From: Closterium sp. NIES-65
Taxonomy: Eukaryota > Streptophyta > Zygnematophyceae > Desmidiales > Closteriaceae
DNA: 64,000 nt
Direction: 5' to 3'
Assembly (NCBI GenBank): GCA_948144175.1
Contig: CANXME010002275.1
Location: 4,587,001-4,651,000 of the forward strand
The notes beneath the pieces were generated by a model, which saw only the letters and a list, made by a program, of their open reading frames with translations, did no database searches and had not been told where the DNA came from. Position numbers and translations under genes: made by a program. Shown in pieces: positions 4,265 to 23,776 of this stretch. The number at the start of each line of letters is the position of its first letter. Position 1 is the first letter of the stretch.

Positions 4265-5795
4265 CAATGACTAGTTTGTACATGCGCTTGTGAAGTTCCC
4301 TAAAACCTTTCGATTTCCTACAACGATGCGCTCTCGGGATGATTCCCTATCGCGCTTACCTATCATGGATTATTGCTCTGTCAGACATACGCATTTGATG
4401 TGACCAGCTATGGGCTTCTCACCCCAAGGAGACAGGTGTCGCACAGATGAGTGACGAATATCCCATCCGCTCGTTAGCTGATTTCGTCCTCGCTTGGTTT
4501 TTTGTCTTTCGCCAAACCCGTTAAAGCCATTCGAAAAATTTCCCAAATACCATGCTGACCTCGGGCTTTAAGCGTCATCCATGCCCACTCAAATGTTTTG
4601 TACCAAGAGCAATTTTTGAAGGATGGCGGGAAGTAAAATACCCCATAAATTCTGTAAAGTTTTCCTTCGATGGGGAAAATTGTGTTCTTCGAAAGAGGAA
4701 ATATCTTCCAATAGTCTTTCCCGCTCAAGCCTTGTGAGAGAGGGAGGGTCGCTTCTCATGATGGCCCTTCCAGCCTGTCTCGCTTGAGTCGAGTCGAGTC
4801 GCACCCGCAAACCCAGCCCACACTCGCCATGACCTCAGGGTGCACGTTTGCATATCATGTCCTGTCCATTGCAGTTACATTACAGTAATAACTACCTCTC
4901 AGGACCTCTCTCGGTCCCACCCAGCCTTGTCGGTCTCAACTCATCCCTTCTTTTCACCGACCTTCGTGCCTTTCCCTTCCCTCGCTCTTTTTGTAGCTGT
5001 GTCCAGCTGCTCAAACGCTCCCATTCTATCCACGTCATGCGTAAACCCTCCTAGAATCCGTTAGAGTCCGTAGTGGGAGCTCGTGGCGCGAGTCGAGAAA
5101 GCATCGATAAGAGTAGCTACCTAATATTTTCCTTGCTACAGTCGTTTCAAAAGCAGGTACATATGAGCAAGCCATGATGCGCAGAATGGGGTGACCTTCG
5201 TGTCGGCTCTAAAGTCTCTTCCGTTTTGAGTCGGCTCAAAAACCGAAAGCGACTTCAAGGGGTACCTAAATCAAGCGCAGAATGCCTGACAGACTGAGGC
5301 CGCCGACTTTTTTGCGTCGTTTCGTCGACGAGGCATCATGCGTGCAACGTGCAATCCGCCGTAGCGCATTGCGCGTAAATCATTTCCCAGCGCATTGCAC
5401 GTTGCACGTAGCAGCACGCGCCGCGTGCCAGCCGTTTCCAGCGCGCTTGCATTGCCTCCATGCGATAGAAGTGAGAATTTTAGACGTCTAAAAAATTCTC
5501 TTATATCGCGTTGCCTCCACGCCCCAGTCGTTCGAAGCTCCTCATTTACAGCTCGAGTCGCAGCCGAACCGCTCTTCACAAAGAAAGAAGTCTTCCAAAT
5601 CCGTCCATTCCTTTCCGTCTCGTTCATCCCGTCCGTCCGTGCGTCCTTGCGTCCATCCCCCCCACCCCTTCCCCCCACCCCTTCCCCCCGCTCCTCCTTC
5701 CCCTCGCCCACCCCCCCAACCCCTTCCCTCTTCCCTCCCCCTCCCGTGACCTTTTTAGGTTCGAGCCAACGTTTTCCGGCCCTGCGCGCGACGCG
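4265..5795. other. upstream region without a recognisable gene
   Basis: Composition is more balanced than in the flanking repeats. There is no convincing coding exon. A short frame near 4890 (NNYLSGPLS) resembles a plant leucine-rich repeat, but only over one unit. Two near-palindromes lie here: GTTTTGAGTCGGCTCAAAAA at 5223-5243, and 5473-5500 (GAGAATTTTAGAC with its near-complement). Both sit between short direct repeats. A C/T-rich tract at 5640-5750 immediately precedes the promoter. Confidence 0.5.
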
Positions 5796-5801
5796 TATAA
5801 A
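5796..5801 (+). promoter_or_regulatory. TATA box of the permease gene
   Basis: TATAAA lies 82 bases upstream of the ATG at 5878, after a C/T-rich tract and before a short leader rich in CT (GCTCTCTCTCGCGGCGCGC). Spacing fits a TATA-driven plant-type core promoter with a leader of about 50 bases. The transcription start itself cannot be seen. Confidence 0.5.
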
Positions 5802-5877
5802 CGTCTGTTAACACACGAAGCCTGCCTCTACAAATAGTTCCCAAGAGTTCGCTCTCTCTCGCGGCGCGCTTTCAGCC

Positions 5878-23382: not shown

Positions 23383-23473
23383 GAGAGAGAGTGAGAGAGA
23401 GAGAGAGAGAGAGAGAGAGAGAGAGAGAGAGAGAGAGAGAGAGAGAGAGAGAGAGAGAGAGAGAGAGAGAGAG
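23383..23473. repeat. (GA)n microsatellite
   Basis: About 45 GA dinucleotides with two GT interruptions directly after the permease stop codon, so probably in its 3' UTR. Confidence 0.95.
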
Positions 23474-23776
23474 TGGCTATTGCAGCTTGAGTCGACTGAA
23501 CAATGTGAACCTGGCCCCTGTGGCATTGCAGAGTGGGTTGTGGAGGAGAATGCCGGGGAGAAAGAGGCTGAGGGGAAGATGGAGTGATAAAGACGGTTTC
23601 TTGGTCCGCTCGAGAATCTCAATTGGGCGCCAGTGACCATTGCAGCGTGGGTCGCCCTCTTTGTCGTGTGGTGGGTCGTGCTCGCCCACTTCTGGTTCAA
23701 GGGGTTGGTTTGAAAGATTTTCCTAGTTATGGAGGAGAATGGCGGGGAGGAGGCTGAGGGAAGATGGAGTAGGAGA
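23474..23776 (+). repeat. two 3' copies of exon 11 with a palindrome
   Basis: First copy, 23474-23587: GTGGCTATTGCAG, the partial palindrome TTGAGTCGACTGAA (about 23490-23503), GTGGCATTGCAG and a tail copy GAGAATGCCGGGGAGAAAGA ending in TGA. Second, 23607-23776: CTCGAGAATCTCAATTGGGC through GTGGTGGGTCGTGCTCGCCC to GGTTGGTTTGA, then another tail. Both follow the functional exon, with stops and frame changes. Confidence 0.88.

Follow-up and report, generated by a model that had tools for sequence, protein, structure and literature searches.

In this work, we describe a family of very short palindromes, with the core TTTTGAG-N4-CTCAAAA, in the genome of the zygnematophyte alga Closterium sp. NIES-65, starting from a stretch of 64,000 nucleotides (contig CANXME010002275.1, positions 4,587,001 to 4,651,000, hereafter the window), in which the palindrome recurs in and around an amino acid permease gene. 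The family is probably a mobile palindrome of the nuclear genome, ultra-short in size, which enters at breaks with a wide stagger. Its mobility, with target duplications that are long and differ in length (from 16 to about 100 bp), is well supported, while the enzymes of insertion, and the regeneration of each palindrome from one of its halves, are what we infer from the sequences.

The first of two readings offered by an initial annotation of the window, a very small mobile palindrome that makes long target duplications, was to be checked by its genome-wide frequency and by the duplication of its flanks; counts and flanks both support it. In the assembly searched (874,075,685 bases, 2,400 contigs) the exact core was found at 30,327 sites, versus 4 for the same pattern read backwards, which is also a palindrome and of unchanged composition. 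For 20 single sites fetched from the genome-wide list, the flanks were compared around a fixed 24-bp block, requiring flush repeats with a repeat score of at least 28: 19 sites were positive. Among 300 control positions, taken from the window and from nine further stretches and not from the surroundings of the 20 sites, 13.3% were. At 11 of the 20 sites the repeats are gapless, 92.9–100% identical, and measure 30, 25, 59, 28, 19, 23, 71, 42, 16, 30 and 63 bp; they enclose inserts of 23–45 bp, whose ends vary on both sides. Insertion looks recent, since four of the sampled sites carry duplications which are 100% identical: L041 (59 bp, flush on both sides), L051 (30 bp), L045 (23 bp) and L050 (16 bp). 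A separate set of 25 ten-kb stretches contained 14 sites with a score of at least 27 (0.4 expected), 11 of which reach a repeat score of at least 24; the same repeat score is reached by 8 of 9 strong sites in the window and by 17.3% of 600 controls. Counting each array once, the proportions are 7 of 10 sites in the ten-kb stretches and 6 of 7 in the window.

Evidence on the state before insertion comes from protein records. A total of 265 proteins were fetched, 145 from searches with a long interspersed nuclear element (LINE) of the window, not all of them named Closterium, and 120 from copia. The LINE reverse transcriptase P0015, from strain NIES-53, contains a 32-residue insert, missing in all six relatives chosen for alignment, the window LINE included. 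The insert is made up of a second flank copy of about 21–22 residues and of about 10–11 palindrome-encoded residues around LLRRLKSRLSS: subtracting about 63–66 bases from 96 leaves about 30–33, matching the length of the element. By pattern search, the corresponding single-copy stretch of 33 residues was found in 10 of the 145 proteins. In P0071, from NIES-54, 20-residue repeats surround the peptide GDVTFESTR, consistent with GTGACTTTTGAGTCGACTCG. Overall, the palindrome is recognizable as protein in 3 of the 145 LINE-search proteins (P0013, P0015, P0071), with flank repeats clear in P0015 and P0071 and weak in P0013; two unnamed proteins recovered as looser regular-expression matches, P0090 and P0104, show no flank repeat by eye. 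The initial annotation had suggested looking in related strains for empty sites with a single flank copy, and at the protein level such sites exist, the LINE relatives having one flank and no palindrome; at the DNA level none was found within the genome. As judged from the LINE empty site, with its one flank copy and no palindrome, the duplication appears to arrive together with the insertion.

Sequence, ends and growth of the element

Copies of the element are dispersed among unrelated surroundings. A 1.46-kb query across four window palindromes, P7 to P10, retrieved a second copy of the permease gene, 99% identical, on C440; the P10 element itself (query positions 1311–1357, approximately) was found in both orientations on dozens of unlinked contigs, at 87–100% identity, among the 40 of 237 candidates scored. 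Likewise, the L051 element (approximately 205–243 of its query), about 32–36 bp around AGGTGACTTTTGAGTCGACTCAAAAGTCACCT, lies on dozens of unlinked contigs and on both strands, 40 of 625 candidates having been scored. Neither the flanks of P10 nor those of L051 are matched at the dispersed copies: the element has sharp ends, 32–47 bp being shared by unlinked places and the flanks not. The sequences of P10 and L051 suggest two different subfamilies, each with its own outer arms. One well-dispersed full form, of 32 bp, is AGGTGACTTTTGAG-TCGA-CTCAAAAGTCACCT, and the longer subfamily, represented by P10, measures 40 bp or slightly more; GGTGACTTTTGAG/CTCAAAAGTCACC is a pair of element arms. At L031 (3892–3915) we noticed another perfect palindrome of different sequence, TGAAGTTTGAAATTTCAAACTTCA, again flanked by weak direct repeats, which may represent a further subfamily. 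We dropped the idea that the target end serves as the template for the outer arms, as L043 seems to fit it and L041 and L049 do not. Outside eukaryotes, TTTTGAGTCGACTCAAAA was found at 4 places in a prokaryote collection, two of them in Planctomicrobium, which by our own arithmetic is roughly what chance would give in 257 Gb; in viral contigs it was found at no place, and neither a longer form of it nor the copia protein had a match there.

The palindromic structure is preserved while the sequence changes. Genome-wide, the centre is TCGA at 13,080 sites, ACGT at 5,047 and TCGT/ACGA at 114, so that 18,127 of the 18,241 WCGW centres are symmetric and 114 asymmetric, where independent changes of the two sides would give thousands of the latter (own arithmetic); this count covers 18,241 of the 30,327 sites, the other 12,086 centres falling outside it. 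Among 50 sites listed genome-wide, 4 have a centre which is not self-complementary. Complementary pairs outside the selected arms were tested in 27 sites versus 2,000 permutations: bases at distance 2 from the centre pair in 26 sites (permutation maximum 21) and at distance 10 in 23 (permutation maximum 20), while at distances 1 and 14 the observed pairing was reached by 1 and 5 permutations, respectively, and at the other outer distances by 45 to 1,750. Symmetry is thus strong at the centre and beside the core, and fades outwards. Because centre variants are almost always symmetric, the palindrome would be regenerated from one half. The symmetry would arise either in the building of every insertion from a single half, or by correction of imperfect palindromes ahead of their spread. 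Head-to-tail concatemers of half units, found within single inserts at L030 (4423), L047 and L052, favour building from one half; in L030, at about 4340–4445, a single insert contains six head-to-tail TGACTTTTGAGTCGAC units, between repeats of about 44 bp.

A bolder version of this, which we put forward only tentatively, is that the replicating unit is the half palindrome alone, a strand of about 16–17 nt whose 3' end is self-complementary, of which GGTGACTTTTGAGTCGA is an example. Such a strand would pair with a second copy of itself, be extended to a perfect palindrome and be captured at a widely staggered break. Symmetry would then be re-made at every insertion, which would explain why mixed WCGW centres are so rare (114 of 18,241); half-unit replication would likewise account for there being only 4 of the 50 listed sites with a centre that is not self-complementary, for the first outer pair changing together and for the head-to-tail half units. 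If true, this would place the element among the smallest mobile genetic elements conceivable.

Once inserted, units made of the palindrome plus its repeat expand into arrays. One such unit in the window corresponds to four in the 99% identical copy on C440; in C1651 a 74-bp spacing recurs 15 times, and L030 (6809–9450) contains an 84-bp satellite with 32 palindromes, each unit consisting of a 36-bp palindrome and a 48-bp flank repeat, a satellite still close to the state in which it arose. With each insertion tens of target bases are copied, which creates local duplications, including that of part of an exon (at P9 in the window), and the units grow into satellite-like arrays. Some of the local duplication of the genome thereby has a concrete source.

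Copies in the window and their host gene

The window is nuclear DNA, as indicated by introns, by LINE and copia elements (the latter beyond 26 kb) and by its position in a multi-Mb contig of the 874-Mb assembly. A search for TTTTGAGNNNNCTCAAAA with up to 3 mismatches gave 13 matches versus 1.78 expected; none of 100 shuffles reached 13, the largest number being 6. Six matches are exact (5224, 10884, 10926, 17652, 18625 and 18904). The dispersed palindrome of the initial annotation was therefore real, its instances placed correctly to within 1–2 bases and its centres, TCGA, TCGG and AATT, as given there. A weighted scan found 9 strong sites (score at least 27), versus 0.05 expected from block shuffles and 0.2 from Markov shuffles; they are confined to 5.2–18.9 kb, and the part from 24 to 64 kb has none. 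The further claim that the palindrome in most cases lies between direct repeats holds at 8 of 10 independent named sites, taking 10883–10977 as one, and is not confirmed at 5223 and 23488.

The clearest case is P10 (18891–18932), GT followed by a 40-bp perfect palindrome (18893–18932), which lies between 80-bp direct repeats, 18811–18890 and 18933–19012, with 4 mismatches, and has dispersed copies elsewhere in the genome. As clear are P7, CTTTTGAGAATTCTCAAAAG (17651–17670), between repeats of 39 and 41 bp (17612–17650 and 17671–17711), and P9, GTGACTTTTGAGTCGACTCAAAAG (18620–18643), between 37-bp repeats with 1 mismatch (18583–18619 and 18644–18680). The degenerate palindrome P8 (17982–18021) is flanked by 20-bp repeats with 2 mismatches (17962–17981 and 18022–18041). 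In the region 10874–10993 three palindromes, P4 to P6 (10883–10902, 10925–10944 and 10958–10977), alternate with flank copies CTCGTCCTG. P12 (10081–10233) is a hairpin, GAAATCACTTTTGA...TCAAAAGTGATTTC, with a 28-bp array, between 32-bp repeats with 3 mismatches (10049–10080 and 10234–10265). P3 (8588–8617), a T-tract plus TTTTGAGTCGGCTCAGAA, is older by both measures, its palindrome being decayed and its flanks (8513–8587, 75 bp, and 8618–8685, 68 bp) diverged. P2 (5464–5507, named in the initial annotation at 5473–5500) is a related palindrome with core TTTTAGACGTCTAAAA and imperfect outer arms, lying between 15-bp repeats with 2 mismatches (5449–5463 and 5508–5522), weak if taken alone. P1 (5223–5242) is the palindrome GTTTTGAGTCGGCTCAAAAA, whose outer arms pair imperfectly to about 5213–5255. 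P11 (23488–23501) is a remnant, TGAGTCGACTGAAC, with flank repeats far from it and no convincing repeat, so that a flank duplication is not established there. A weak, degenerate copy at 6285–6304 has on either side a diverged copy of an exon end (6143–6184 and 6317–6358).

Local duplication is frequent in the permease gene with or without a palindrome. At a score of 24, with gaps up to 15, the flank test was passed by 8.7% of 2,930 random positions; after masking, at a score of 20, it was passed by 8 of 12 cores versus 14.6% of 500 random positions, the copies at 8598 and 10082 scoring 0 and 6, respectively, because the T-tract of the former is masked and the array of the latter lies outside the core. 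Since 8.7–17.3% of random positions pass, depending on test and cut-off, and the gene is rich in tandem duplications, the window alone is only moderately strong evidence.

The host gene, on the forward strand (approximately 5878–23382), is intron-rich, encodes an amino acid permease (AA_permease_2) and has many partial exon duplications; most window palindromes lie inside it, P1, P2 and P11 just outside. Partial tandem exon copies were noticed at 7400–8470, 11234–11690, 17770–18441, 19060–19800, 20200–20780 and 22070–22440, with joints which, by eye, are mostly without a palindrome, and a 26-bp minisatellite of about 30 copies at 20974–21763, also within the gene. The LINE lies inside the gene on the reverse strand (11691–17335, ends inferred from the flanking repeat), with a reverse transcriptase open reading frame at 12134–14305 and a second one at 15009–16736; it features 222-bp 5' repeats and a (GA)n tail. 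The 66 best matches of its reverse transcriptase are all named Closterium. It is flanked by an 85-bp direct repeat (11606–11690 and 17336–17420; 10 mismatches, 88% identity): if this is a true target duplication, LINEs in this genome also produce very long ones. In the window, no Rfam match at gathering scores and no tRNA was found.

Mechanism and alternative explanations

In the mechanism we consider probable, insertion would occur at a widely staggered break, fill-in of both overhangs would create the target duplication, and the palindrome would join the two filled ends. As the insert ends vary by a few bases on both sides, this would be end-joining of a short self-complementary DNA, or of its reverse transcript, and not the work of an exactly cutting transposase.

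Several observations weigh against this explanation. The analysis turned up neither a source molecule nor an enzyme or master locus, and the insert ends, being taken from alignment limits, are partly ambiguous. One of the 20 sampled sites, L042, has no flank repeat, and at P1 in the window no convincing one was found, the best flank match being a 10-mer with gaps of 35 and 33 bp. At the 8 positive sites other than the 11 clean ones the repeats, of 71–179 bp, are diverged (77–92% identity) and gapped; some of these sites, for example L038, L040 and L046, are locally repetitive, and what looks like a target duplication there may be an older array. The spread is uneven, the 14 sites in the ten-kb stretches falling in 4 of the 25, with none of score 27 or above in the other 21. 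Symmetry is weak beyond the centre and the first outer pair in the 27 sites tested, and correction of quasipalindromes after insertion could also yield it. None of the 120 copia proteins carries the palindrome motif. Finally, DNA-level empty sites were sought in second copies within the same genome (P7–P10 region, L041, L051 and L045) and none was found: the full-length second copies are all filled, with 99% identity for the P7–P10 region and 100% for the other three, and the other matches in the L041 search covered one side of the site only.

Two side observations were also made. Stretches of 448 bp, 100% identical, are present in 2–3 copies (C6, C347 and C1658 for L041 and L045; C9 and C1759 for L051), and are either recent large duplications or unmerged haplotypes. 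Internal repeats were flagged in 17 of the 120 copia proteins (P0146–P0265): 9 of them, from NIES-53 and NIES-54, have long internal duplications without a palindrome, and the other 8 share one N-terminal repeat.

The main rival, possible but in our view well short of probable, is that a resident LINE acts in trans on a short hairpin RNA and inserts it through target-primed reverse transcription, the element being an ultra-short SINE (short interspersed nuclear element). This would be another enzymology for the same insertion, and its chances overlap with those of the best explanation. The duplication length of LINE and SINE insertions varies widely, as it does here, and the LINE in the permease gene is itself within an 85-bp direct repeat; that repeat, however, lies in an exon which is locally duplicated anyway. 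A T15 tract is found on one side of P3, and of P3 only, and most of the copies read lack an A-tail; by eye, no 3' end is shared with the window LINE, the one LINE compared, whose tail is (GA)n. Target-primed insertion retains a fixed 3' end, while both insert ends vary in Closterium, although this argues less strongly against target-primed reverse transcription than against an exact-end transposase.

It is unlikely that the palindromes are what is left of an ordinary DNA transposon or of a miniature inverted-repeat transposable element (MITE), its two terminal inverted repeats having been joined head to head. Such an origin would fit the high copy number, the perfection of the inverted repeats and the presence of subfamilies that differ in their arms. 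Known cut-and-paste families, however, make fixed, short duplications, and those at the 11 clean sites of 20 range from 16 to 71 bp; nor are the ends constant and exact, the inserts of 23–45 bp varying on both sides, as far as alignment limits define them.

Rather less likely still is the second proposal of the initial annotation, in which the palindrome comes first and its hairpin, by blocking replication, provokes re-copying of the flank. Tandem growth of palindrome-plus-flank units is real, as seen in the one versus four units of the window and C440 and in the 84-bp satellite of L030, and hairpin re-replication may explain this later growth of arrays. As an origin of the duplications it is not supported: it predicts a palindrome without duplication as precursor, and from the related LINE proteins both are missing at the P0015 site. 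Moreover, the palindrome must arrive, because its copies are dispersed with unrelated flanks.

A palindromic adaptor or primer dimer joined into reads during library preparation or assembly has the right shape, two identical half strands with a self-complementary 4-mer, and is very improbable, as some flank copies are identical and others differ by more than 20%, old palindromes have decayed, and the motif recurs in protein records of NIES-53 and NIES-54, obtained by a sequencing technology unlike that of NIES-65 (nanopore long reads and PacBio, respectively, according to the portion of PMC10407611 available).

Comparison with known systems

The mobile palindromes best comparable to the Closterium element, which were compared through those parts of the cited articles that were accessible, reside in mitochondrial or plastid DNA, whereas the window is nuclear. 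A trait in common with them is a palindromic structure that persists through sequence change. The GC clusters of yeast mitochondria include GC42, a non-coding palindrome of 42 nt that is mobile, strains differing in its presence at homologous positions, and are discussed in a section headed as under functional constraint (PMC4478555). They differ in being mitochondrial, the four commonest having 5–25 identical copies flanked by AG or ACT (PMC4478555), while the Closterium element is nuclear, with more than 30,000 exact-core copies and duplications of 16 to about 100 bp. The organelle palindromes of Volvox carteri, also from the green lineage, average about 50 nt in the plastid and were proposed to be selfish DNA in noncoding regions (PMC2670323). 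The copies found in the nucleus are regarded there as inert transfers from the organelles, and the accessible text is without the terms duplication and direct repeat (PMC2670323). The Closterium element, by contrast, belongs to the nucleus, is abundant there and seems to have inserted recently, with duplications.

Repair of staggered double-strand breaks also yields direct repeats, by the filling-in of protruding ends, and no recurring family of inserts is mentioned in the accessible part of its description (PMC5730883). In Closterium, variable-length direct repeats surround the joint at 19 of 20 sites, but the filler, rather than being absent or copied from nearby, belongs to one genome-wide palindrome family, carried by the joints repeatedly. 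Palindromes of 18 bp and, nearly perfect, of 38 bp occur in the terminal repeats of Penelope-like retroelements of a bdelloid rotifer, where those at inverted junctions are attributed to self-priming; these elements, however, code for a reverse transcriptase and an endonuclease, and their target duplications measure 8–10 bp (PMC3846280).

Two bacterial groups share single features with the element. Insertion sequences of the IS1634/IS1549 type have long, variable target duplications, but exceed 1 kb, encode a transposase and have defined ends. Of long target duplications around REP palindromes, which are also bacterial, we know of none. The likeness of the latter, which are moved by RAYT transposases, lies in their very short size and high copy number (PMC2817692).

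A literature search, with subscription papers and bioRxiv preprints mostly outside its coverage, found no report of this element. No known transposon class cleanly accommodates a nuclear mobile element which has tens of thousands of copies and is often shorter than its own duplication; such an element makes testable both the origin and repair of wide-staggered breaks in a relative of land plants and the way in which short palindromes spread in organelles and nuclei. As far as a limited literature shows, we regard the element as new in kind, because it differs from DNA transposons and from organellar palindromes in the features that define them, and is not a clear retroposon.

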